Source of the DNA: a virus
Virus record (IMG/VR): IMGVR_UViG_3300002483_000079
Coordinates: 1 to 23,274 of that record
Length of the DNA: 23,274 bases
Direction: 5' to 3' (one strand)
Shown here: positions 11 through 18,308 of the stretch, in pieces
Position numbering within the stretch: position 1 is the stretch's first letter
Layout of the letters: each line of letters begins with the position of its first letter
The notes under the pieces: model-generated
The model's input: only the letters and a program-made list of their open reading frames with translations
What the model was told of the DNA's origin: nothing
Database searches by the model: none
Made by a program: the position numbers and the translations under genes

Positions 11-850
11 TTGGCGGAATCAGAGTCAAAAAGCAACCCCGAAAGTTTATCAGAGATTGATATAGCGGGCGCCATTGGTGCTGCTACTAAAAAATTGGCA
101 GGCATGGGCGCGCGCCCCAAAGACCGCAGCATGGGCGGCAGAACTTCAATGAAGGGCACATTAGCGACTCCAGAAGAAATGCCTCCACAACAAACAGCAC
201 TCGTAGTTCGCACTGTTGGGGAGATAGAGAAAGCATCTTCACCAAATGAAGTGGCTAATATACTTAAGAGTGACTTGTTTACAGCTCTACATAATAGTAA
301 CCCGGATACATATGATTTGGTTCTGAACTCAATTTCAAAAGAGCAATCTGATCTTATTTCGCAAGCTTTACTTGGTGCTATGCTTACTGAAAATCAGGCC
401 GCCTTCAGAGACATGCTCGATGCCTTAAAAATAAAATTTTCCAGGGTTGAACCACTTATTAATAGAATCACAGGCTACCTCCGTGGCGATTCTCGCAAAC
501 AACTGCTTAGTTTAGATGTGATGGCATTAAGAGAAGAAGAAGATTCTTTTGCTGCGAACCTTACAAGAAGGTTGTCACAAATGTTTCAGATGCTTCGCCT
601 ACAATATCAAAAGTATATACTTGGACAAACACTAATTAAATTTTGGGAAATAGTCATAAAAAACAATACTTATGAGGTAAGTGGGGACGCCATGACCGGT
701 CTACAAACTATAGCAAAGATCCAAACAGATTGGATTAAAAACAACATTGACCTCGAAGAAGTTGATGCTTCAAGAAACAAAAACCGCTCTAATATTAAAA
801 AAGCAGCCAACAAGCCTGAAGTCAGAGCTTTGCTGAGCACACAGTCTTAA
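11..850 (+). CDS. Unrecognised phage protein, possibly 5'-truncated by the window edge
   Basis: I do not recognise this protein. The shown start is a TTG at position 11 (279 residues), but the frame is open back to the first base of the window and no clear ribosome binding site is visible, so the true start may lie outside. The first ~60 residues are low-complexity and Ser/Gly/Pro-rich. From about residue 65 onward it is predicted mostly helical, with a basic, Asn/Lys-rich tail. No signal peptide or membrane segment is visible. It stands at the head of the same-strand run leading to bS21 and the virion genes, 20 nt before the next gene, so a head- or virion-associated role is plausible by context only. 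Confidence 0.75.
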   Translation: MAESESKSNPESLSEIDIAGAIGAATKKLAGMGARPKDRSMGGRTSMKGTLATPEEMPPQQTALVVRTVGEIEKASSPNEVANILKSDLFTALHNSNPDTYDLVLNSISKEQSDLISQALLGAMLTENQAAFRDMLDALKIKFSRVEPLINRITGYLRGDSRKQLLSLDVMALREEEDSFAANLTRRLSQMFQMLRLQYQKYILGQTLIKFWEIVIKNNTYEVSGDAMTGLQTIAKIQTDWIKNNIDLEEVDASRNKNRSNIKKAANKPEVRALLSTQS

Positions 851-870
851 AATAAAAAATAGGTAAACTA

Positions 871-1281
871 ATGAAAAAGAATGATTTAAAAAAATTAATT
901 AAACCCATAGTCAAAGAGTGTATCAACGAAGTGCTTATAGAAGAAGGGTTGTTATCAAATATTGTGTCGGAAGTGGCAATTGGAATGCAAGGAAACCAAA
1001 TTGTTGAGAACAAGCCTATCGCAGCCAAAGAAGAGATCCGACACCAAAAGATTAAAAACAAAGAAACGAAGCTAAAGCTCGAACAACACAGAAAAAAGAT
1101 GATGGAAGCTGTCGGAACCGACGCATACAACGGAGTTAACTTATTTGAAGGGACAACGCCAGCACCGGCCCAAAAAGAAGCCGCCGGTGGCTCTGTTGAC
1201 CTTGGAAGCCCAACAGACGCCGGCGTAGACATAAGTTCACTAATGGGTGGCGCATCACAAATCTGGAAGGCAATGAAATGA
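871..1281 (+). CDS. Small hypothetical protein with amphipathic N-terminal helix
   Basis: A 136-residue protein I cannot assign. The N-terminal ~30 residues (Lys-rich, then LIKPIVKECINEVLIEEG) look like an amphipathic helix of a kind often seen at the start of phage virion or scaffold-associated proteins. A charged, coiled-coil-like stretch follows at about residues 50-85. The C-terminal third is Gly/Ala/Ser/Pro-rich and probably flexible. The ribosome binding site is weak (AGGTAA, 7 nt before the ATG). Its stop codon overlaps the next start in an ATGA arrangement, so translation of the downstream bS21 gene is probably coupled to it. Function unknown. Confidence 0.8.
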   Translation: MKKNDLKKLIKPIVKECINEVLIEEGLLSNIVSEVAIGMQGNQIVENKPIAAKEEIRHQKIKNKETKLKLEQHRKKMMEAVGTDAYNGVNLFEGTTPAPAQKEAAGGSVDLGSPTDAGVDISSLMGGASQIWKAMK

Positions 1282-1523
1282 AAAAACAATGCAACTTTAA
1301 GGTAACTTCAAAAGAGTGCCGCGGCAATGTAGAAAGAATGATACGCAGGTTTATTAAGAAAACAAAAAAAGAAAGAATTTTAGATGAAATTCGTGATCGT
1401 CGTTTTCATGAAAAGCCTTCGGTTAAGAAAAGAAAAAAGAGTGAAAAAGCCAGAAGATTGCGAGCCCGCCAAGAGCAAAAACGCCTTAGAGCCAAAGAAA
1501 GGCGCAATAGAAGAAACAACTGA
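1278..1523 (+). CDS. rpsU: Phage-encoded ribosomal protein bS21
   Basis: An 81-residue, extremely basic protein matching the bS21 family. Residues 17-60 carry the family pattern: an Arg-Arg-Phe helix (RRFIKK, 23-28), a second helix with ILDEIRDRRF (34-43), the hallmark EKPS (45-48), then an Arg/Lys-rich tail of the kind seen in cellular bS21. Cellular bS21 is about 70 residues, so this is full length with a slightly longer tail. bS21 sits on the small subunit near the 3' end of 16S rRNA and takes part in initiation on Shine-Dalgarno messages. It is one of the ribosomal proteins most often found in environmental phages. The start overlaps the upstream stop (ATGA), with a GGAAGG site 7 nt before it. 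A swap into host ribosomes to favour late phage mRNA is inference. Confidence 0.9.
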   Translation: MKKQCNFKVTSKECRGNVERMIRRFIKKTKKERILDEIRDRRFHEKPSVKKRKKSEKARRLRARQEQKRLRAKERRNRRNN

Positions 1524-1531
1524 CTATTTAT
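1524..1531 (+). promoter_or_regulatory. Candidate late-promoter box CTATTTAT
   Basis: CTATTTAT preceded by A and followed by ATTG, 30 nt before the start at 1562. It is one of ten such boxes, one in each long intergenic gap of this window. The promoter role is inferred from recurrence and position; it is not the T4 late box TATAAATA in the sense orientation. Confidence 0.45.
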
Positions 1532-1561: not shown

Positions 1562-1975
1562 ATGCCAACTTATAAGAATTTAAATCCTGGCCTAAATCAC
1601 ACCCCTGCATACCAAGCTAGTGGTCGCCCATATGCAACTGGCAGCTTAGTGGTGGACACACCAAAAGAAGTGGAGTTTCCATATGTAACTCGCTGGGTAT
1701 ATGTTATCAACCATGGAACAGGATCTGTTAAGGTAGGTTTTTCGCAGAACGGTGTACTAGGCACCGGCGGTAGCGCTAATTATTTCCAACTTAATGGAAC
1801 ACAAAGCGGAGCCAATGACGCACAATCTATTAGACTAGAATTGAAGGTGTCAGAAATACACTTACACGGGAACAGCAATAATGTTGATGTGGTAGCAGGC
1901 CTGACATCAATCCCAGCAGTTAGAACATCAGGAAGCGCTGGAACCAGTTGGAGTGGTTCAGCAGGAGTTGGTTAA
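1562..1975 (+). CDS. Small virion-like protein, possible appendage subunit
   Basis: A 137-residue protein with a good AAGGAG site 8 nt upstream of ATG. It is rich in Gly, Ser, Thr, Asn and Val, with alternating hydrophobic residues suggesting a beta-sandwich (strands around residues 50-60, 90-110). It ends in a Gly/Ser/Ala low-complexity tail. There is no signal peptide or membrane segment. It immediately precedes a run of fibre-like proteins (2 nt to the next gene), so a role as an appendage or decoration subunit is the best guess. I do not recognise a named family. Confidence 0.75.
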   Translation: MPTYKNLNPGLNHTPAYQASGRPYATGSLVVDTPKEVEFPYVTRWVYVINHGTGSVKVGFSQNGVLGTGGSANYFQLNGTQSGANDAQSIRLELKVSEIHLHGNSNNVDVVAGLTSIPAVRTSGSAGTSWSGSAGVG

Positions 1976-1977
1976 AG

Positions 1978-2637
1978 ATGGCATTTGGATGGGCCTATGT
2001 AGACTGTAGCGACAGTGCTGGTAGTGGAGGTTCTACCGGCCCTAGTGGATCGCTGCAGTTCATGACTGGATCTGGACTCGGCATTTCGACGGGTTCAGTA
2101 AACTTAACATTTCAGAATAACCAGATTCTACAATTAACAGGCACATTACAAGTTAATGGTGTAATCAGTGCTAGTCAGTATCATATTGATGATGTTTCTG
2201 TTATTCATGCTAGTGGCTCAACATATTTTGGAAACACAAATGATGATGTGCATGCCCGCACTGGTAGCCTGACTGTGGCAAATGCTGCCAATGAAGTAAG
2301 TCTAAATGTTAACACTTCAGGCCGCACAGATTTAAGACAACTAACAGTTGAATATACCGCTGTAACAAGCTCTCCATATACCGCTAGTCATCCAGCGTAC
2401 ATTCTTGGTGTACAGGCCACAGGACAAGTAAACATTCAGCTTCCTAGTCCGGTCGGAGTAGCTCTGTCTGGCAACATTATAATGATAAAAGATGAACTAG
2501 TTGCTAGTCGTGGCGGAGACAACATCACACTGAATACCGCCGCAGGCCTTATAGATGGTGGTTCGACTTATGTTCTGACAGGCTCCATGCCAGCAATTAG
2601 TTTATATTCAAATGGTGCCAACTGGTTTGTCTTCTAA
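1978..2637 (+). CDS. Fibre-like virion protein, first member of a four-gene array
   Basis: A 219-residue protein. I choose the ATG at 1978, 2 nt after the previous stop, because an AGGAG site lies 10-15 nt upstream and the next two array members also begin Met-Ala. The longer frame from 1948 would overlap the preceding gene. The N-terminal ~25 residues are Gly/Ser-rich. The module GSVNLTFQNNQ (around 46) reappears in the next protein as SSNLTFQNN. The C-terminal ~85 residues (ILGVQATGQVNIQLPSP to ISLYSNGANWFVF) resemble the C-terminal domain of the next two proteins and end in an aromatic residue. This is typical of trimeric phage fibre or appendage proteins; whether it belongs to tail or head cannot be told. 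Confidence 0.75.
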   Translation: MAFGWAYVDCSDSAGSGGSTGPSGSLQFMTGSGLGISTGSVNLTFQNNQILQLTGTLQVNGVISASQYHIDDVSVIHASGSTYFGNTNDDVHARTGSLTVANAANEVSLNVNTSGRTDLRQLTVEYTAVTSSPYTASHPAYILGVQATGQVNIQLPSPVGVALSGNIIMIKDELVASRGGDNITLNTAAGLIDGGSTYVLTGSMPAISLYSNGANWFVF

Positions 2638-2657
2638 TTAATAAAGGAGGCACATAG

Positions 2658-3395
2658 ATGGCTTATAATGCTATATCAGGTACATTAATTGCAGCGCAAA
2701 ACTATTTGCCTGCTAGTGGCTCATTGGTGGCCAATGTCTTGTCAGGTAATTTGAGCACCTCTGATGGTGCTAGTGTCGTTAATGTGCCAAGAGTTGCAAA
2801 CCCTGTTGCTAATGGTTTGGTCATTGACACCGGAGGAGATGCCAACACGCTTCGTTGCGATGCTGATATCACCTTTGATGGTGGGACACTAAATGTTGTT
2901 GGCGATATTACCGCTAGTGTTGGTATCTCTGCATCAATTTTTGTTGGAGATGGAAGTCAACTTACAAACATTAATTTTGATAATATCACGGCCGCAGGAC
3001 CAGCCTTTTCTGTTCAGCTTCATGACGGCGCAGATGGAGATATTACAGGTTCATCGAACCTTACATTCCAAAACAACATATTGGCCATCGACGGAGGACT
3101 AAGATTATCGAGAAGATTTTCAAACACCTCCATAACTGCATCTATAAGTGATTACTATATTGGTCTTAATAGTGCGAATGGCCCTCTTTCAGTTACACTA
3201 CCACCGGCTGGCCTAATGAGTGACGGTCAAGCCTATGTCTTAAAAGACGAAGGTGGCGTTGCTAATACAAATAATATCACAATTCAAGCCTCCGGATCGC
3301 AAACAATCGACGGCAAAAATTCGATAGTTTTGGAGTCACCTTATGCATCTGTCCAACTTTATTGCAACGGCGCAGACAAATACTATATTTACTGA
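2658..3395 (+). CDS. Fibre-like virion protein, second member of the array
   Basis: A 245-residue protein with a strong AAAGGAGG site. It starts MAYNAISG, like the fourth member's MAYNVLKG. It contains the fibre-type motif GDGSQLTNI (around residues 97-105) and SSNLTFQNN (around 132-140). It ends in the array's C-terminal domain: a strand rich in Pro and Leu (SVTLPPAG), then VLKDEGG, then the hallmark SQTIDGKNSIVLESP, closing with ADKYYIY. The SQTIDG..IVLESP block is nearly identical in the third member. No receptor-binding domain or intramolecular chaperone is visible. Likely a virion appendage subunit; exact location unknown. Confidence 0.75.
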   Translation: MAYNAISGTLIAAQNYLPASGSLVANVLSGNLSTSDGASVVNVPRVANPVANGLVIDTGGDANTLRCDADITFDGGTLNVVGDITASVGISASIFVGDGSQLTNINFDNITAAGPAFSVQLHDGADGDITGSSNLTFQNNILAIDGGLRLSRRFSNTSITASISDYYIGLNSANGPLSVTLPPAGLMSDGQAYVLKDEGGVANTNNITIQASGSQTIDGKNSIVLESPYASVQLYCNGADKYYIY

Positions 3396-3416
3396 AATTT
3401 TTACTGGTTTAATGAT

Positions 3417-3424
3417 CTAATTAT
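3417..3424 (+). promoter_or_regulatory. Candidate late-promoter box CTAATTAT
   Basis: A variant of the recurring CTAWWTAW box, 96 nt before the start at 3521. If it is a promoter, the transcript leader would contain the two hairpins that follow. Confidence 0.35.
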
Positions 3425-3431
3425 AAGCGAC

Positions 3432-3486
3432 CCCTTAGTCATTCTAAGGGTAAAATTTGGATAGGTTTATCTTATTCAAATAAACC
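3432..3486 (+). promoter_or_regulatory. Two tandem hairpins in the leader of the 3521 gene
   Basis: CCCTTAG (3432-3438) pairs perfectly with CTAAGGG (3444-3450) around a 5-nt loop. Then GGTTTAT (3464-3470) pairs with ATAAACC (3480-3486) around a 9-nt loop. Neither is followed by a T-run, so they are not standard terminators. They sit in the leader of a gene with highly biased codons, so an mRNA-stabilising or processing role is possible (inference). Confidence 0.5.
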
Positions 3487-3520
3487 ATATATTAAAACTA
3501 TAAATGGAGGGTTTTTAAAA

Positions 3521-4825
3521 ATGGCTTACAAATTTCAAAACGAACTCGCAATTATGTCGGGTGCATTGGATCAAGAAGGTAACATAACCGTCTTCGATCA
3601 AGCCGGTGCTGCAGCAGTTGCACTTGGTGATGATGGCGAGATTTCTGGTTCTTCTGACCTTAAAATTGGCGGTACAGTTCAGTTTGACGGTGTTGCTACC
3701 GCAGCCGTAACTGCAACTGACGGTATCTTTTTCAAAGATTCTGACGGCCTCATGAAAGTCGACGCTGCAGGCGATCTTCGCGACTTATACTTCAGTGCTG
3801 TTTCTGGTGATGCTACTATCGCTGCTGGTGGTGCTCTCACCATCGCTGCTGACGCTGTTGAAAGCGGAATGCTTAACGACAATGTTATCTCGGGTCAAAC
3901 TGAGTTAGCTCAAGGTTCTCTTGACGCTGCTGACGAGTTCTTAATCTCTGATGGTGGAACTATCAAGCGCTACGGTGTTGATAGCTTGGCTAAGGATTCT
4001 CTTGCTTTAACTACTGAAGCAGCCGCTGATGTGTCTGCTGATTACATCGTCTTCCTTGACGGTGGCGCAACTGGCGAAACTAAGAAAGAGTCATATGCTG
4101 ACTTAGTCGCTAGCTCCGCTGGGCTTGGTCTTGCTTCAGCAGCTGGTCAATATTCTCTTGACTTCAGCGAATTAACTGACGAAGTAATTGCTTCTGGTGA
4201 CAGAATTGCTTTCCGTGATGCTGGTGATGATGGTATGCATGCTGACACTGTTGATGATCTTGCTGCTCTTTTCGCTGGTGCTGGTCTCGCTGCTTCCTCG
4301 GCTGTCATCGGCGTTGCTAACGCAACTAACGGTGGTTTAGCAATTAACGCTAACGACATGCAAGTTGACCTCAACGATCTTTCCGCTGCATCTGTCAGTG
4401 TTGCTAACGATAGCATTGCTATCATCGACTCTGATGATTCCAACGCTTCTCGTAAGGAAAGCATTGCTGACCTTGTTGCTGCCATGGCAGGAACAGGCCT
4501 TACGGCTCTCAACGGCCAACTTAGTGTGACTGATGGTGGCGCTGTTAACGCAATTGGCGATGCCGATGCTACTCTCACTGAGTCGTTCAACTACGCTAGT
4601 GCTACAATTACTGATAACCGCACCTGGACGCTTCCAGCTTCCTCAAACTTTGCGGTTGGTGACACGCTTCATGTCAAGTTGGCAAATGTCGATCCTGGCA
4701 AAAAAGTCACAATTGCAAGAGCTGGTTCTCAAACTATCGATGGTCTTACCGCGATTGTTCTTGAGTCGCCAAACGCTGCTGTTTCACTTAAGTATGTTGC
4801 TGCTAACCTCTTCAAGATTTTCTAA
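3521..4825 (+). CDS. Probable abundant fibre-like virion protein with internal repeats
   Basis: A 434-residue acidic, Ala/Asp/Gly-rich protein with a GGAGGG site. The middle carries degenerate repeats beginning near residues 138, 174, 227 and 297. The pattern is D-x-I-x-F/I-x-D, about 10 residues, then S-x-x-D-L-x-A, and in most copies AGxGL. Related modules are common in large marine phage structural proteins. The C-terminal ~75 residues match the array domain, with SQTIDGLTAIVLESP near residues 401-415 and a final Phe. Codon choice (GCT, GGT, CTT, AAC, ATC, TTC) is much closer to the capsid gene than to its neighbours, suggesting high expression. It has its own structured leader and a strong terminator behind it. 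Particle location unknown. Confidence 0.8.
   Translation: MAYKFQNELAIMSGALDQEGNITVFDQAGAAAVALGDDGEISGSSDLKIGGTVQFDGVATAAVTATDGIFFKDSDGLMKVDAAGDLRDLYFSAVSGDATIAAGGALTIAADAVESGMLNDNVISGQTELAQGSLDAADEFLISDGGTIKRYGVDSLAKDSLALTTEAAADVSADYIVFLDGGATGETKKESYADLVASSAGLGLASAAGQYSLDFSELTDEVIASGDRIAFRDAGDDGMHADTVDDLAALFAGAGLAASSAVIGVANATNGGLAINANDMQVDLNDLSAASVSVANDSIAIIDSDDSNASRKESIADLVAAMAGTGLTALNGQLSVTDGGAVNAIGDADATLTESFNYASATITDNRTWTLPASSNFAVGDTLHVKLANVDPGKKVTIARAGSQTIDGLTAIVLESPNAAVSLKYVAANLFKIF
3932..4531 (+). repeat. Degenerate protein repeat units inside the 3521-4825 gene
   Basis: Four related units start at about 3932 (DEFLISDGG), 4040 (DYIVFLDGG), 4199 (DRIAFRDAG) and 4409 (DSIAIIDSD). Each is followed by a Ser..Asp-Leu block and most by an AGxGL block. 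Spacing is uneven (about 36, 53 and 70 residues), so these are diverged repeats rather than recent tandem copies. Confidence 0.6.
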
Positions 4826-4863
4826 TCAAAACTTTGTTTCGAGAAGAAAGATTCTTATTTCCT

Positions 4864-4894
4864 GGATGCCTCCCTTGTGGGGGCATCCTTTTTT
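4864..4894 (+). terminator. Rho-independent terminator after the 3521-4825 gene
   Basis: GGATGCC pairs with GGCATCC, extended inside by CCC/GGG with one unpaired T, around a TTGT loop, and is followed directly by six T. This closes the transcription unit of the probable abundant virion protein. Confidence 0.85.
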
Positions 4895-4918
4895 ATGTGC
4901 TTAATAAACAAAAATAAT

Positions 4919-4926
4919 CTATTTAT
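4919..4926 (+). promoter_or_regulatory. Candidate late-promoter box CTATTTAT
   Basis: CTATTTAT followed by GTTTG, just downstream of the terminator and 16 nt before the start at 4943. The short distance means the transcript, if it begins about 10 nt downstream, would carry a minimal leader including or just preceding the GAGAGG site. Confidence 0.4.
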
Positions 4927-4942
4927 GTTTGAGAGGAACAAA

Positions 4943-6097
4943 ATGGCTTATAATGTTTTAAAAGGAAATGTAGAAGGCTCCGTAGATCAGTATGCTGATC
5001 AAGAAATAAGCGGCGTGAAAGTATTTAAAAACACAATTAGTGCAAGTGTTTTTTATGACACAGATGCTCAAAGCCCGTGTGCCACTGAAAATAATGTGGC
5101 GATTAAGAAAATAACTGGAACTACTAAAAAAGGAATTGTCACTTATGAGGGTGACAAACTTGCTAGAGCACACTATAACCTTACTTTTGATGGAAAAACG
5201 CTTGTCACGGATAATGCTATTTTCAAACACATTTCTGGTAATGGTAACGGGCTAAAAAATGTTCCAGCAGAGAGTTTAATTGGAAAGATAAATGCTGACA
5301 GAGTTGATTGCGCCAACGAACTAGAATCTTATAACGGAACATTAAGAATAAGAAAGTCCAATGGGGTTACTGCAACCGAACATGGCCTTACACTAGATTT
5401 GTCTCCTAATGGCGCTTTATCCTTTAGAAATGGAAAAGTAACAATAGATCCCCAAAGTACACTAGGTGTCACCACCGGTGGGCAAAATATAAGCGACAAT
5501 GACACCATTTTAATGTTCGACAGTTCTCGTGGAGACTTAAGACACACAACATTCAAAAACCTGTACGATGGTTATATTAATATAAAAACACCACAAGCCG
5601 CAGGTTCAATAAATGCCGTGCAACTCAAGGGTAATAAAAGTTTTACAGCGAGCGATAGTCTTTCTTTTGATGTTGGTAACAATATATTAAATGTTAAAGG
5701 TAAATCTAAAGCTCTAAATGTTGAAGCCAGCAATTCATTGGTATCTAATGGCACGACCGAGATTAACGGTGCGCTTTATAAAACAATTAAGACAATTACT
5801 GACTCTGAATATCATATACAAGATACCGATAATACTGTTTTGTTGGATGTTAGCAACAATAATATTCTCGCCATATTGCCTCTCGCTAAAGAAAATTATG
5901 GAAGAGTCATAAATGTTAAAGTTATAGTCAACGAAAATCAAAAATACAACATTCGTAGTGCTAGGGCCGCGAAAATTAAAACAAACGGCGAACTTATTGA
6001 TTTTACTAAAGAAATCATGCTAAAATCAAACTACTCATCAAGAACATTCCACTCAGATGGTGTTAAATGGTGGGTTATAAATGCAAACGGCTCGTAA
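4943..6097 (+). CDS. Fibre-like virion protein, fourth member of the array
   Basis: A 384-residue protein. I choose the ATG at 4943, with a GAGAGG site, because the in-frame ATG at 4877 lies inside the terminator hairpin. It begins MAYNVLKG, like the second member. It carries the fibre-type motif GNGNGLKNVPAESLIG near residues 97-112 and a C-terminal domain with the same layout as its neighbours (ILAILPLA strand, then a strand block, ending near VKWWVINANGS), though this is the most diverged copy. It is more Lys/Asn-rich and AT-rich than the preceding gene and lacks its codon bias, so it is probably made in smaller amounts. Likely virion appendage; exact role unknown. Confidence 0.75.
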   Translation: MAYNVLKGNVEGSVDQYADQEISGVKVFKNTISASVFYDTDAQSPCATENNVAIKKITGTTKKGIVTYEGDKLARAHYNLTFDGKTLVTDNAIFKHISGNGNGLKNVPAESLIGKINADRVDCANELESYNGTLRIRKSNGVTATEHGLTLDLSPNGALSFRNGKVTIDPQSTLGVTTGGQNISDNDTILMFDSSRGDLRHTTFKNLYDGYINIKTPQAAGSINAVQLKGNKSFTASDSLSFDVGNNILNVKGKSKALNVEASNSLVSNGTTEINGALYKTIKTITDSEYHIQDTDNTVLLDVSNNNILAILPLAKENYGRVINVKVIVNENQKYNIRSARAAKIKTNGELIDFTKEIMLKSNYSSRTFHSDGVKWWVINANGS

Positions 6098-6122
6098 ATT
6101 ATTCCTTTTGCACCACAAAACA

Positions 6123-6162: not shown

Positions 6163-7434
6163 ATGTCAAGCTTACTCAAGGAAGCGATTATCGATGCGAA
6201 AGCGCTTCGTGAATCAGCATTAAAAAGTGCTGAAACCACTATCATTGAAAAATATTCCGATGAAGTAAAACAAACCCTCGACCAATTATTAGAACAAGAT
6301 GAACTTGGTCTGGAAGGCGAAGCACCTACAAGCAGTGAAGAAGTTGCCAAGAATATTCCTTTAGCTGCCACTGATAATCTTTCTGAAGAAGAAGGCGAGA
6401 TGCCTGAGAACATGAACGAAGAGGGTGAAGAAGTTCCCGTAACTATTGATCTTGAAGCCTTGCAGGAAGCGGTTGCTGCCTTAGAGAACGAGCTTGAAGA
6501 AAACGAAGAAATAGAAATTACGGAAGAAGATTTAGCTGCTCTTACTGAAGATGATGACGAGGACCCGCAGGGCTCAGGAGAAATGGCCGGCGATTCTGGC
6601 AGCGCAGGTGAAGGAGAGGCTGCAGCAGCCCAAACCGCCGCGGCTGGAGAGCAAGATGAAAAAGCCATGAAGGGAATGGAAGAAGAAATTAACTTTGATG
6701 CTCTTGTCGATGCAATTATGGAAAAGATTTCTTTAGACGAAGATCGCGACGGCGATGGTGTTCCTGATGATAAAGACGACGATGATGGAGACCACACAAA
6801 CGATAATAACAGAAAAGAAAAATGCGATTATGTAGATTGCGAAGGTGAGACTACGAGCGAAGACATCGACACAGATTCCCTCGTAGACGCCATCATGGAA
6901 AAACTTACTGTAGATATGGGTGCTGACCTTGCCGGCTGGGCCGGAAGATCGTCTGAAGATCAAACTCATCAAATTGAAAAAGAATTAGCACATCGTCGAA
7001 GCACAGATGTGGAAGAAGAATTAGAAACTTTAAAGAAGGCTCAAGAAGAGTTAGTTTTTGAAAATAAACAACTAAACGAGCATCTTTCCCAACACAAGCA
7101 AGTACTCGAAGAGCTTAAAGAAAGTTTACATGATGTAAATCTTTCCAACGCTCGCTTGCTTTATACGAACCGTGTACTGAGAAATACCTCCCTGAATGAG
7201 CGGCAAAAACAAAAGATTGCCGAAGCGATTTCTAACGCTGGTTCTGTAACAGAAGCGAAGGTTATTTATGAGACCCTTCAAAGCACAGTGGAGACAAAGC
7301 CAAAGCGCAGTCCACAATCACTGAGCGAAGCTATCGGTAATAAGCGCTCTTCTGTTATTCGTGCTACCCGTCAGGAAAGCACACCCTCTGATCCTCTCCA
7401 AGAGAGGCTGAAGAGACTAGCTGGCATCAAATGA
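6163..7434 (+). CDS. gp22: Prohead core scaffold protein (T4 gp22-like)
   Basis: A 423-residue protein directly before the major capsid gene, in the position of the T4 scaffold gene. It is very acidic from about residue 45 to 215 and ends in a long helical or coiled-coil region (about 280-350). The C-terminus (residues ~380-423) is basic and ends LKRLAGIK. T4 gp22 is 269 residues, so this one is larger. Inside is a duplicated helix, FDALVDAIMEK (178-188) and TDSLVDAIMEK (237-247), separated by an Asp-rich DRDGDGVPDD stretch (194-203) resembling a thrombospondin type-3 calcium loop. Several (L/I)xE|(A/S) sites of the T4 prohead protease type are present, for example LKE7|A and LRE17|S. Start: TTAGGAGAT site, ATG. 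Role: assembles the prohead interior and is then degraded. Confidence 0.8.
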   Translation: MSSLLKEAIIDAKALRESALKSAETTIIEKYSDEVKQTLDQLLEQDELGLEGEAPTSSEEVAKNIPLAATDNLSEEEGEMPENMNEEGEEVPVTIDLEALQEAVAALENELEENEEIEITEEDLAALTEDDDEDPQGSGEMAGDSGSAGEGEAAAAQTAAAGEQDEKAMKGMEEEINFDALVDAIMEKISLDEDRDGDGVPDDKDDDDGDHTNDNNRKEKCDYVDCEGETTSEDIDTDSLVDAIMEKLTVDMGADLAGWAGRSSEDQTHQIEKELAHRRSTDVEEELETLKKAQEELVFENKQLNEHLSQHKQVLEELKESLHDVNLSNARLLYTNRVLRNTSLNERQKQKIAEAISNAGSVTEAKVIYETLQSTVETKPKRSPQSLSEAIGNKRSSVIRATRQESTPSDPLQERLKRLAGIK

Positions 7435-10856: not shown

Positions 10857-11012
10857 ATGTCTAAAAGAACTGTAATAATCAAAAAGAGAGCTTTGCGCGA
10901 AAGAGCCGCCCAACCAGCGGCCGCTCCTGCGAAGAAAGCAGCGCCAGCCAAAAAGGTAGCTAAAAAAGCTGTCAAAAAGGTCGCTAAAAAGGCTTCTTCT
11001 AAGGAAAAGTAG
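10857..11012 (+). CDS. Histone-H1-like Lys/Ala-rich 51-residue basic protein
   Basis: A short gene with a TAGGAGA site ending 8 nt before the ATG, ending TAG at 11010-11012. The product has 51 residues, with 15 Lys, 4 Arg, 14 Ala and only 2 acidic residues. The second half repeats A-K-K with Val, Ala or Pro spacers (residues 25-46), the signature of histone-H1-tail and Hc1-like DNA-binding tails. No hydrophobic core is evident, so it is probably unstructured until bound to nucleic acid. It lies between a virion protein and a strong terminator in the head module. Packaging-related DNA condensation, neutralisation of head DNA or an ejected nucleoid protein are possible (inference). Confidence 0.75.
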   Translation: MSKRTVIIKKRALRERAAQPAAAPAKKAAPAKKVAKKAVKKVAKKASSKEK

Positions 11013-13857: not shown

Positions 13858-16776
13858 ATGTCAGTTAAAAGTTTTAAATTTGTATCTCCGGGAGTGTTTA
13901 TCAACGAGATTGATAATTCTTTCATCCCGAGATCTGCCGAGGCAATCGGCCCTGTGGTCATCGGTCGCGCGCGTAGAGGCCCGGCGATGCAGCCCACAAA
14001 AGTTCAATCTTATTCAGAGTTTGTTGAATTATTTGGAGACACTGTTCCAGGCGGAATCGGTGGCGATGTTTCCAGAGACGGAAACTTGCAGTCTCCAATG
14101 TACGGAACCTACGCAGCAAAAGCATTTTTGGTGTCTAATGTAGCCCCTCTTACTTATATTCGTTTGCTTGGTGAAGATTCTGACAATGCCACCACTGCAG
14201 GCACCGCTGGCTGGGAAACAACCAATGACCCCGCAGCAGCTTTGGGAGATAACGGTGGTGCTTATGGCCTGTTCTTATTCCCAAGTGCAGCTTATGCCGA
14301 CACTGCCGCCCTAAGTTCTGGCGCCTATATCAGTAACGGAGCCGGTGCGGCACAACTTACCGGAACACTAGCAGCTATTTGGTACCTTGACTCGGGTTCA
14401 GCAATTGCGCTTTCAGGAACACTTTGGGGGCCTACAGGTGCTGCAACTACATCGGCTATTGGTCATGTTATCGAGGGTGCGGGCTCAAGCAAAGATTTGT
14501 TTACTGTACAGATTACTGGTACTGATATTGACAAAAAGATTCAATTTTCTTTTGATGACAGCAAGGAGACTTTCATTAGAAAGCGCTTCAACACAAACCC
14601 GCAATTAGCTTCTGAGTCTGGCAAGTTCTATGCCGCCGCTTCTTTTGAAAACTACTGGCTCGGTGAAACATACGAGCAAGAAGTGCGCGATGATTCCCTT
14701 GTTGGTGCGAACACACTCGCAGCTATTTTACCATTAGCAGCCAGTTCATCAGCCGGTACAGGCCCAGGTAACAAGCGAGTTTCACATCAGGAAGGTCGCT
14801 CAGGTTGGTTTATCGGCCAAGATCTTGATGGAGACGCAGGTGCCTTTAATGTTGAGTTGGCGCCAAAGTTGTTCCGCTTAAAAGGCCGAGGACATGGCGA
14901 GTGGTTACACAAGAATGTTAAAGTTTCAATTGAAAAAATTAGAGCATCTCAATCCACTACCACTGATTATGGTACCTTCTCGGTTGTCCTTCGCTCTCTG
15001 AATGATACCGATAACAAGGTTCAAGTTCTTGAGCGATTTGATAACCTTAACTTAGATCCAGGAAGTCCAAACTTCATTGGCCGCAGAATTGGCGACACAT
15101 ATCGTGAGTGGAGTGAATCCGAGAGAAGAGTAAAGACTTATGGAGATTACGCAAATCAATCCAAATATGTCTATGTTCAATTAGAGTCGAATGTCGAAGA
15201 TGGTGGAGCAAACCCACTCTTGTTGCCCTTCGGATACTTTGGACCTCCTAAATATAATGATGTAAACATGGCTAATGAGGCAGCGCGCCCGAGTGATCCA
15301 ACCGACATGATCCATTGGAGAAATGATGGTCTTTACAACGGCGGGTTTTTCCTGCTTCAAGTTGAATCGGGGGATGCGTCCTATGGCCCTTCGGGTGCCC
15401 TCGGGCAACTGAAATTCCCAGTTGCTAGATTAAGGCACTCTTCATCTGACGGCGGGATTGCCGATCAAAAGAACGCATACTTTGGATTCCAAAACACAAG
15501 AACCTCTACATCTACTCGTGCCGACTTGAGCATGGGAGATGTACACAGTATGCTTGACGCACGACTGCTTGATACGGTTGATCTTGGAATGTCAGGCTCT
15601 ATTGACGGAGCCGCGGCAGCCTATGTGTTTACTATGAATGACATTCGTCAGTATGGCGGAGGCTACTTCTACGAGTCTGGTTCATACAAGAATGGAACGG
15701 CAGCTACGATCACTGGCGGAGCAACATACAAGACATTGCTTCAGGCCGGCTACGATAGATTTACTGCACCATTCTTTGGCGGGTTTGACGGCTGGGATGT
15801 TAAGCTTCCCGACCCAGTGTACAACGCAGGCATGACATCCGCTACTGACTTAAATTCTTCACCGTTCTACACGCTGAAGAGAGCAATCGACACAGTTGCC
15901 GACCCAGAAGAGGTTAACATGAACTTGTTAAGTGTTGCTGGTATTACCAACGAGACCCTCACTAATCATGCAATCGACATCTGCGAAGACCGCGGTGATG
16001 CGATGGCCCTTATCGACCTTCCGAATCTTTACTACCCACAGCACGAAGCTTATAAGGCTAGTAAGAAGGATAGACTTGGTGTTGGCGTTAACTCTGCTGC
16101 TACCTCGCTGAAGGATAGAAGAATTGATTCGTCTTATGGCGCCACATTCTACCCATGGGTTCAAACTAGAGACCAGGCTACTGGTCGTGCTGTCTGGATT
16201 CCACCATCCGTCGCAATGATGGGTGTCTTAGCTAGCTCACAAGCTGCTTCTCACCTTTGGTTTGCTCCAGCCGGATTTAACCGCGGTGGCCTTTCGGACG
16301 GCGCTGCAGGCATCCCTGTAGCAAATGTTTCCGAGAGATTAACCTCTAAGGAAAGAGACAAGCTTTACGAAGCTAACATCAACCCAATCGCCTCGTTCCC
16401 ATCTAGCGGAATCGTGGTCTTTGGACAAAAGACCCTTCAAGAGCGCCAATCGGCACTCGACAGAATCAATGTTAGAAGACTGGTCATTTACTTGAAGAAG
16501 CAAATCTCCATTCTCTCTACTCAAGTTCTGTTCGAACAAAATGTACAGTCAACTTGGAACCGTTTCAAGTCGCTTGTCGAGCCGTTCCTTGCAAATGTCA
16601 AGGTTCAGTTCGGTATTACCGACTACAGACTGATTCTCGACGAGACTACAACAACTGCTGACTTGATTGATCAAAACATCATGTATGCCAAGATTATGGT
16701 CAAGCCAGCCCGCGCAATTGAGTACATCGCGATTGACTTCGTGGTTGCCTCAACTGGTGCATCATTCGACGACTAA
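13858..16776 (+). CDS. gp18: Tail sheath protein (T4 gp18-like), oversized
   Basis: A 972-residue protein with an ACGAGGG site. The N-terminus has the sheath signature SPGVFINEIDNS (10-21), then GPVVIGRARRGPA and a PTKVQSYSEFVELFG block. The C-terminal ~150 residues are the conserved sheath core: LTSKERDKLYEANINPI, RRLVIYLKKQI, STWNRFKSLVEPFLANV and the final YIAIDFVVA strand that interlocks neighbouring subunits. T4 gp18 is 659 residues; the extra ~300 appear to lie in the middle (about 100-600), rich in Gly, Ala, Ser and Thr, and may be surface-exposed domains. Role: contractile sheath around the tail tube. Codon bias strengthens toward the 3' half. Confidence 0.93.
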   Translation: MSVKSFKFVSPGVFINEIDNSFIPRSAEAIGPVVIGRARRGPAMQPTKVQSYSEFVELFGDTVPGGIGGDVSRDGNLQSPMYGTYAAKAFLVSNVAPLTYIRLLGEDSDNATTAGTAGWETTNDPAAALGDNGGAYGLFLFPSAAYADTAALSSGAYISNGAGAAQLTGTLAAIWYLDSGSAIALSGTLWGPTGAATTSAIGHVIEGAGSSKDLFTVQITGTDIDKKIQFSFDDSKETFIRKRFNTNPQLASESGKFYAAASFENYWLGETYEQEVRDDSLVGANTLAAILPLAASSSAGTGPGNKRVSHQEGRSGWFIGQDLDGDAGAFNVELAPKLFRLKGRGHGEWLHKNVKVSIEKIRASQSTTTDYGTFSVVLRSLNDTDNKVQVLERFDNLNLDPGSPNFIGRRIGDTYREWSESERRVKTYGDYANQSKYVYVQLESNVEDGGANPLLLPFGYFGPPKYNDVNMANEAARPSDPTDMIHWRNDGLYNGGFFLLQVESGDASYGPSGALGQLKFPVARLRHSSSDGGIADQKNAYFGFQNTRTSTSTRADLSMGDVHSMLDARLLDTVDLGMSGSIDGAAAAYVFTMNDIRQYGGGYFYESGSYKNGTAATITGGATYKTLLQAGYDRFTAPFFGGFDGWDVKLPDPVYNAGMTSATDLNSSPFYTLKRAIDTVADPEEVNMNLLSVAGITNETLTNHAIDICEDRGDAMALIDLPNLYYPQHEAYKASKKDRLGVGVNSAATSLKDRRIDSSYGATFYPWVQTRDQATGRAVWIPPSVAMMGVLASSQAASHLWFAPAGFNRGGLSDGAAGIPVANVSERLTSKERDKLYEANINPIASFPSSGIVVFGQKTLQERQSALDRINVRRLVIYLKKQISILSTQVLFEQNVQSTWNRFKSLVEPFLANVKVQFGITDYRLILDETTTTADLIDQNIMYAKIMVKPARAIEYIAIDFVVASTGASFDD

Positions 16777-16850: not shown

Positions 16851-17435
16851 ATGCCATTCTGGTCAGAAAACTTTGGAGATGGTCAAGGCCTTAACGATCC
16901 AAAAAGAAATTTTAGATTTACTGTTGAATTTCAAGGAATTCAAGCAGCACAAGGCGGTGCTAAGCTTTGGTATGCTAAGTCAGCAACCAAGCCATCGTTC
17001 GCCATCAATTCCGCGGAGCATAAGTATTTAAATCACACTTTTTATTATCCCGGAAATGTAACATGGAACGATATTACAGTTACCATGGTCGATCCAACCG
17101 ATCCAGACATGGCTGCTACTTTGTCTGCTATTGTAGAGGCTGCAGGGTACGCTCCTCCTTCTGATGCAAATGACATGGCTTCAATTTCTAAAGCCAAATC
17201 TGCATCTGCACTGGGTACTGTCCTTATTACACAACTTGATGCTGACGGAAATCCGCTTGAGACATGGACATTGTGGAATTCTTTCTTAACAGAAGTTAAA
17301 TATGGTGATAGTCTAGAGTATGGAAATGATGACCTTACTGAGCTTTCTGTTACAATTAAGTACGACTGGGCTAGACTCGAAACAAAGGGTAAAGCTGCTG
17401 CCGGTAGTGGTCAGTCGTCATTCTTTAACGCATAA
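16851..17435 (+). CDS. gp19: Tail tube protein (T4 gp19-like)
   Basis: A 194-residue protein with an AACAGGAG site. It has the gp19-like pattern: an N-terminal DPKRNFRFTVEFQGI strand (17-31), LWYAKSATKPSF (40-51), a HKYLNHTFYYPGNVTWNDITV region in two strands (57-77), then TMVDPTDPDMA. A late block has LTQLDADGNPLETWTLWNSF-type strands followed by VKYGDSLEYGNDDLTELSVTI. T4 gp19 is 163 residues. It forms the inner tube through which DNA passes and lies directly after the sheath gene, as in T4. Confidence 0.9.
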   Translation: MPFWSENFGDGQGLNDPKRNFRFTVEFQGIQAAQGGAKLWYAKSATKPSFAINSAEHKYLNHTFYYPGNVTWNDITVTMVDPTDPDMAATLSAIVEAAGYAPPSDANDMASISKAKSASALGTVLITQLDADGNPLETWTLWNSFLTEVKYGDSLEYGNDDLTELSVTIKYDWARLETKGKAAAGSGQSSFFNA

Positions 17436-17456: not shown

Positions 17457-18308
17457 TTGTCACGCAATAGAGATCGTTTGGGGACGAGCGCTCCAGAAAA
17501 TAATTCGACCCCACCACAGGCTCTACAACAAAATCCGGGATTTGCGTTTGTCGTTCCGACTGAGTTTGTAGAACTGCCATCAAATGGCCGGTTTTATTCC
17601 GAAAACCACCCACTCCACGGACAAACAACTATCGAAATTAAGCAGATGACCGCCAAAGAGGAAGATATTCTTACATCAAGAACTCTTCTTAAGAATGGTG
17701 TTGCGATTGATAGAGTCATCCAAAGTCTTATAGTCGATAAAAGTATTAATTCTGACACACTGCTGGTAGGCGATCGTAATGCAATACTGATTGCTGCTAG
17801 ATCTTCTGGATATGGTACCGACTATGATACCAAAGTAACCTGCCCATCTTGCGGCGTAGTTCAGGAGTATTCCTTTAATCTAAATGACGCCACAGTTCAT
17901 ACTGGAAACATTTCGCCTGCTTTGGAAATTACTGACAAGGGCAATGGAATATTCGAAACAACACTGCCAAGAACGGGTGTCCAGGTTGGCTTTCGACTTT
18001 TGGATGGAATGGATGAGAAGGGAATGTTGACCCGAGCAGAAAACGCTAGAAAAAGAAAGAAATCGGAACAAGCTGTAACTGACTTAATTAGAACAATGGT
18101 AGTGTCAGTTAACGGTGATCAGAGCCCTCAAGCAGTTGAGTATTTAATTGATAACATTCCATCAATTGACGCTCGCCACTTAAGAACATGCTACAAAGAA
18201 GTTACTCCCAATATCGACATGACACAGTATTTTGAGTGTCAAGAATGTGGTCACGAACAAGATATGGAGGTGCCGCTCACCGCGGACTTTTTTTGGCCTG
18301 ACCGGTGA
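17457..18308 (+). CDS. Baseplate hub/tail assembly protein (T4 gp26-like) with split zinc ribbon
   Basis: A 283-residue protein starting at TTG, with AGAGGTG ending about 5 nt before it. No better ATG is in frame nearby. Residues ~30-55 (PTEFVELPSNGRFY) and ~60-75 (IEIKQMTAKEEDIL) are hallmarks of the T4 baseplate gp26 family, followed by RVIQSLIVDKSIN and LVGDRNAILIAARSSGYG. Two CxxC pairs, C129-C132 and C261-C264, probably make one zinc site across the sequence. T4 gp26 is 208 residues. It is required for hub or tail assembly and lies between tube and tape measure, where tail chaperones usually sit. Its last codons contain a seven-T run overlapping another open frame. Confidence 0.78.
   Translation: MSRNRDRLGTSAPENNSTPPQALQQNPGFAFVVPTEFVELPSNGRFYSENHPLHGQTTIEIKQMTAKEEDILTSRTLLKNGVAIDRVIQSLIVDKSINSDTLLVGDRNAILIAARSSGYGTDYDTKVTCPSCGVVQEYSFNLNDATVHTGNISPALEITDKGNGIFETTLPRTGVQVGFRLLDGMDEKGMLTRAENARKRKKSEQAVTDLIRTMVVSVNGDQSPQAVEYLIDNIPSIDARHLRTCYKEVTPNIDMTQYFECQECGHEQDMEVPLTADFFWPDR
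18288..18294 (+). other. Seven-T run in the overlap of two frames, possible slippery site
   Basis: In the gp26-like frame the codons read GAC TTT TTT TGG and the stop TGA follows at 18306. A +1 or -2 slip on this run would enter the frame of the next ORF and bypass that stop, giving a fusion of about 370 residues. Tail chaperone genes at this position often use frameshifts, but usually -1. This is a candidate only. Confidence 0.3.

Follow-up and report, generated by a model that had tools for sequence, protein, structure and literature searches.

A bS21 gene tied to a conserved partner gene in the head/tail module of T4-like marine phages

Ribosomal protein bS21 is the commonest ribosomal protein encoded by phages (PMC9976891). 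Here we describe a bS21 gene that belongs to a strictly linked two-gene cassette, in which it follows, on the same strand, a gene for a small protein without known family. The analysed DNA (the window), a single IMG/VR fragment of 23,274 bases, comes from a T4-like marine phage and carries its head/tail module, with genes for a gp23-type major capsid protein (MCP), tail sheath, tail tube and baseplate hub. The cassette is kept throughout a large clade of relatives that use ordinary Shine-Dalgarno (SD) initiation, and bS21 is tied there to one partner; it is thus part of a concrete two-gene module rather than a lone auxiliary gene. The clade is also a warning against assuming that phages encoding bS21 have Bacteroidota hosts.

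Identity and conservation of the bS21 gene

1278..1523, + strand: bS21 (rpsU-like) gene, 81 aa, ATG start

The original prediction that this open reading frame (ORF) encodes bS21 is borne out by profile and structure databases alike. Residues 16-60 matched the Pfam family PF01165 (Ribosomal_S21) in a profile search with an E-value of 3.5e-12 and 46.3 bits against a curated cutoff of 27, and the NCBIfam model TIGR00030 scored 36.4 bits, also above its curated cutoff (28.95); PHROG 21469, 'ribosomal protein S21', matched at 2e-5. All 31 PDB sequence matches at E<=0.01 are bS21 or mitochondrial bS21m, the best being that of S. aureus (5e-7). The AlphaFold2 model (mean pLDDT 84) has the expected two-helix form, with helices at residues 18-43 and 47-80 and the KPS turn, rather than a different fold; a Foldseek search with this model returned the B. 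subtilis bS21 as the sole PDB match, a weak one (E 0.85). Judged by its sequence, the ORF is a genuine bS21, with an N-terminal strand region, helix 1, the EKPS turn and a long Lys/Arg-rich helix 2.

The protein differs from bacterial bS21 in a conserved insertion of three residues (CRG) in the N-terminal region. Its Arg60 aligns with Tyr54 of the F. johnsoniae protein, where E. coli has Lys, and is conserved in at least 90% of the bS21s of the clade. In Bacteroidota, bS21 masks the anti-SD through Tyr54; the aromatic residue of that masking type is absent from the window bS21. Compared with the nearest relative, the bS21 gene has a dN of 0.10 and a dS of ~1.5, and across six close relatives dN is 0.10-0.19 while dS is at least 1.5 or saturated. 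Because dN is low relative to dS, these substitution rates indicate that the gene is maintained by purifying selection. At another locus (L014, 9998-10348), bS21 carries a tandem duplication of the KPS turn and the basic tail.

The partner gene and the two-gene cassette

871..1281, + strand: obligate partner gene, 136 aa, without known family, directly upstream of bS21
11..850, + strand: 279-aa gene separating the cassette from the prohead protease, found there in only 6 of 110 relatives
1562..1975, + strand: 137-aa gene directly 3' of the cassette; 81 of 92 relatives also have it in this adjacent position

The partner has no match in Pfam, in PHROGs or among cultured phages. Its conserved parts are an N-terminal helix and a C-terminal GVDISS..IWKAM, and the low-confidence structure model (pLDDT 61) places helices at both ends. 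Relatives were gathered independently with bS21 and with the partner as query, which yielded at least 454 and at least 520 matching contigs, respectively, and both genes were found at every locus where the contig reaches far enough. In all 143 distinct pairs the partner adjoins bS21 on the same strand. In the window the partner stop overlaps the bS21 start by 4 nt (ATGA); this overlap recurs in 35 of the 143 pairs, and most of the remaining gaps are 1-16 nt. At each of the 110 loci whose upstream sequence extends for 3 kb or more, the prohead protease gene lies upstream of the cassette, and it directly adjoins the cassette at only 42; other genes have been inserted between the two, and none within the cassette. 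The linkage of partner and bS21 is therefore tighter than general synteny. The SD of bS21 itself is weaker (ctGGAAGGcaatgaaATG, -5.5 kcal/mol), and from this arrangement the bS21 start probably relies on translational coupling to the upstream gene. Conserved adjacency is, nevertheless, no proof of a common function.

Genomic setting

6163..7434, + strand: probable scaffold/prohead core gene, acidic product, directly before the MCP gene as in T4 and Flavobacterium phage immuto
7465..9279, + strand: MCP, gp23 family (PF07068, 3.4e-72)
13858..16776, + strand: tail sheath protein (Pfam/PHROGs profile matches)
16851..17435, + strand: tail tube protein (profile match)
17457..18308, + strand: T4-type baseplate hub protein (profile matches)

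A relative of 195,690 bases (G001) is syntenic with the window, with protein identities of 40-91%. The related contig L057 shows the genes that lead up to bS21: TerL, portal, other genes, prohead protease and partner, in this order, where TerL, portal and protease were named by eye from the sequence and TerL additionally by matches. The bS21 gene lies within ten genes of a prohead protease, MCP or portal gene. Its placement in the virion gene run had been singled out as unusual: the position is right, but it is not outstanding, since bS21 genes near those for prohead protease, MCP, portal or TerL have been reported in hundreds of phages (Chen 2022, PMC9723584). As for the label 'late', it follows from this position and from a putative late-promoter motif, which in the window comes after bS21 and not before it.

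Several other features of these genomes deserve mention. The sheath protein is unusually large (972 aa), and the sheath domains match mainly its C-terminal third. The + strand ORF at 10857-11012, between two structural genes, encodes a Lys/Ala/Pro-rich basic protein of 51 aa resembling a histone H1 tail. The run of + strand genes at 1948-6097 encodes proteins with common C-terminal repeats (TIDG...LESP.A.V.L), which probably arose by duplication and belong to the virion surface or the fibres. Several otherwise unrelated proteins of G001 (179061-182698) share the N-terminal motif MKI[TS]KxxLKxIIKEEI/L, which might serve as a tag for targeting or for delivery to the capsid.

A conserved element behind bS21

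1523..1531, + strand: ACTATTTAT element joined to the stop codon of bS21; candidate late promoter of the following unit

The bS21 stop codon is followed at +4 or +7 by the CTATTTAT element (CTATTTA) in 116 of 125 distinct relatives, and CTATTTA occurs near this stop at 119 of 125 loci against a shuffled expectation of 1.6, while the 300 nt that precede the partner show no excess of it (4 of 131, 2.9 expected). Across 204 loci (1.54 Mb), the gene strand carries 495 copies of CTATTTA[AT] and the opposite strand 12. All six (A)CTATTTA(T) sites of the window are on the + strand (1523, 4918, 6122, 10092, 11073 and 13798; none on the - strand), mostly 25-140 nt 5' of structural genes; at 6122 the ACTATTTAT form precedes the probable scaffold gene. 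Further copies are present in several relatives close to the protease, at a distance of 1.2-2 kb 5' of bS21. The element is also present in phage immuto, and its reverse complement includes most of T4's TATAAATA. A literature search on CTATTTA found nothing useful. The element is probably the late promoter of this phage group, in place of T4's TATAAATA; an RNA element is a possible alternative. If it is a late promoter, bS21 would end a protease-partner-bS21 unit.

SD use and the type of host

Strong SD sites had been noticed on most genes, and the counts agree: 75% of the 20 starts in the window have a core SD (GGAG, GAGG or AGGA), compared with 10% in an upstream control window. In five large relatives 50-63% of starts have an SD, compared with 6-8% in control windows. 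Over these five genomes, core SDs precede 74% of structural genes and 55% of other genes (combined p 1.3e-4); structural-gene SDs are stronger in all five, the excess being modest and the genomes sharing ancestry. In T4, which is without bS21 and serves as the sole control, the values are 62% and 56% (p 0.31), no clear difference. The proposal that bS21 tunes ribosomes toward SD-rich phage mRNA is weakly favoured by this excess, which is suggestive only, given one control and related genomes. The strong SDs of structural genes may simply be due to high expression.

Promoters were assessed in relatives, because all genes of the window are virion genes. Five large relatives, G001 among them, contain 5-13 sigma70-type promoters (TTGAC N17-20 TATnnT) against 0.2-0.3 expected, and TTGACA occurs 27 times in G001 against 4 expected. 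Early promoters (TTGACA-17-TATATT) are repeated in arrays in the G001 region at about 83-98 kb, where short genes are often preceded by several TTGAC elements in tandem. Related Flavobacterium phage immuto has neither sigma70-type promoters nor SD use, its starts being SD-depleted. Since the five relatives use both, a Bacteroidota host is, by these signals, unlikely.

A scan of 84,980 genomes retrieved one phage contig of the clade, L057 (PAAD01000063.1), in a Flavobacteriaceae metagenome bin, and one Oscillospiraceae bS21. The bin, whose own bS21 has the anti-SD-masking Tyr, probably contains this contig as contamination, and a Flavobacteria host was rejected on the promoter and SD evidence.

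Proposed role of the cassette

We know of no test of the purpose of a phage bS21 in its native host. The explanation we favour, with fair but not high confidence, is that the phage bS21 would replace or supplement the host bS21 on the 30S subunit during the synthesis of head and tail proteins, and that ribosomes carrying it would initiate well on SD-led phage messages. Its gene, second in the cassette, would be translationally coupled to that of the small helical partner, which is probably made in step with bS21 and might aid its loading, exchange or stability. Alternatively, the partner might be a head-assembly protein whose translation sets the dosage of bS21. A stronger version, in which the partner is a dedicated factor that ejects the host bS21 or loads the phage one, so that the cassette is a two-protein module respecifying ribosomes in time with virion production, is rather doubtful.

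The function might instead be one of supply, the phage bS21 topping up a limiting, exchangeable ribosomal protein for complete 30S subunits with no preference for SD-led messages. Such a role fits a protein that retains what it has in common with bacterial bS21 (helix 1, EKPS turn, basic helix 2), and SD use that is phage-wide with only a modest structural excess; the conserved insertion and the near-invariant Arg60, however, suggest a specialised form, and the linkage to the partner is left unexplained. We regard supply alone as unlikely, if still a serious alternative.

That a phage bS21 can enter foreign ribosomes is known from Pelagibacter phage HTVC008M, whose protein is incorporated into E. 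coli ribosomes in vivo and was proposed to replace the host protein; these ribosomes made only ~5% of the normal product (Mizuno 2019, PMC6375957). Incorporation therefore need not mean preferential translation, and inhibition is possible instead. The phage bS21 might thus impair the reading of host mRNA while another phage factor, perhaps the obligate partner, rescues phage mRNA. But the HTVC008M result concerns a heterologous pairing and another bS21 than that of the window, and its authors also offer incompatibility as an explanation; we consider such a shut-off improbable. Slightly less probable still is that bS21 is packaged with the head via the partner, injected, and active from the start of infection: the cassette does lie between prohead protease and capsid genes, and packaging has been raised (Chen 2022, PMC9723584), yet the partner has no detectable family. 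Finally, that Arg60 in place of Tyr54 frees the anti-SD of a Bacteroidota host for SD-led phage mRNA is very improbable, as the SD-rich genes, the Flavobacteriaceae bin with its Tyr-type bS21 and the nearest cultured TerL, from a Flavobacterium phage (48%), are set against strong sigma70 promoters in five relatives rather than the TAnnTTTG type, a bin contig that is the scan's only phage-type match and may be contamination, an SD-depleted immuto whose annotation lists no bS21 over the 50 kb inspected, an about equally related phage (Mel-JY01) that infects Microcystis, and the only moderate effect of Y54A on initiation in F. johnsoniae (PMC9976891).

Comparison with known systems

Among cultured phages, megablast with the first 12 kb of the window and tblastn with its bS21 found no match. 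HTVC008M is likewise a T4-like marine myophage with bS21, but its protein is of the host-derived SAR11 type and was not found by this tblastn; in pelagimyophages, S21 is reported to lie outside any specific gene cluster (PMC7029224). Flavobacterium phage immuto has the closest cultured TerL, an MCP match and the ACTATTTAT motif before its genes, and differs in its SD depletion and in the bS21-free annotation of the part of its head region inspected. The cultured Microcystis phage Mel-JY01 (PP395634), on which we found nothing useful in the literature, has the order prohead protease, 154-aa hypothetical protein, RpsU and, further on, capsid on one strand. Its bS21, located only via synteny, matches the clade bS21 profile at 1.9e-11, and its TerL is 44% identical; its 154-aa protein, however, has no detectable relation to the partner, and its bS21 has a longer N-terminus and a shorter tail.

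The lake Bacteroidetes phages (PMC9723584) also have bS21 beside structural genes with a conserved hypothetical neighbour, and lake metatranscriptomes showed late co-expression of phage bS21 with capsid genes; a late-stage takeover of ribosomes with preferential translation was proposed (Chen 2022, PMC9723584). In their clades a-e, however, bS21 is on the strand opposite to the structural genes and has an aromatic residue at position 54, whereas in the window and all cassettes it is on the same strand, with an overlap with its partner in the window, and the clade has Arg60 and SD/sigma70-type signals. The reading of a late bS21 that retunes ribosomes has thus already been published (Mizuno 2019, PMC6375957; Chen 2022, PMC9723584); the additions made here are the coupled partner on the same strand, the motif conserved downstream of bS21 and the phages' SD use and sigma70 promoters.
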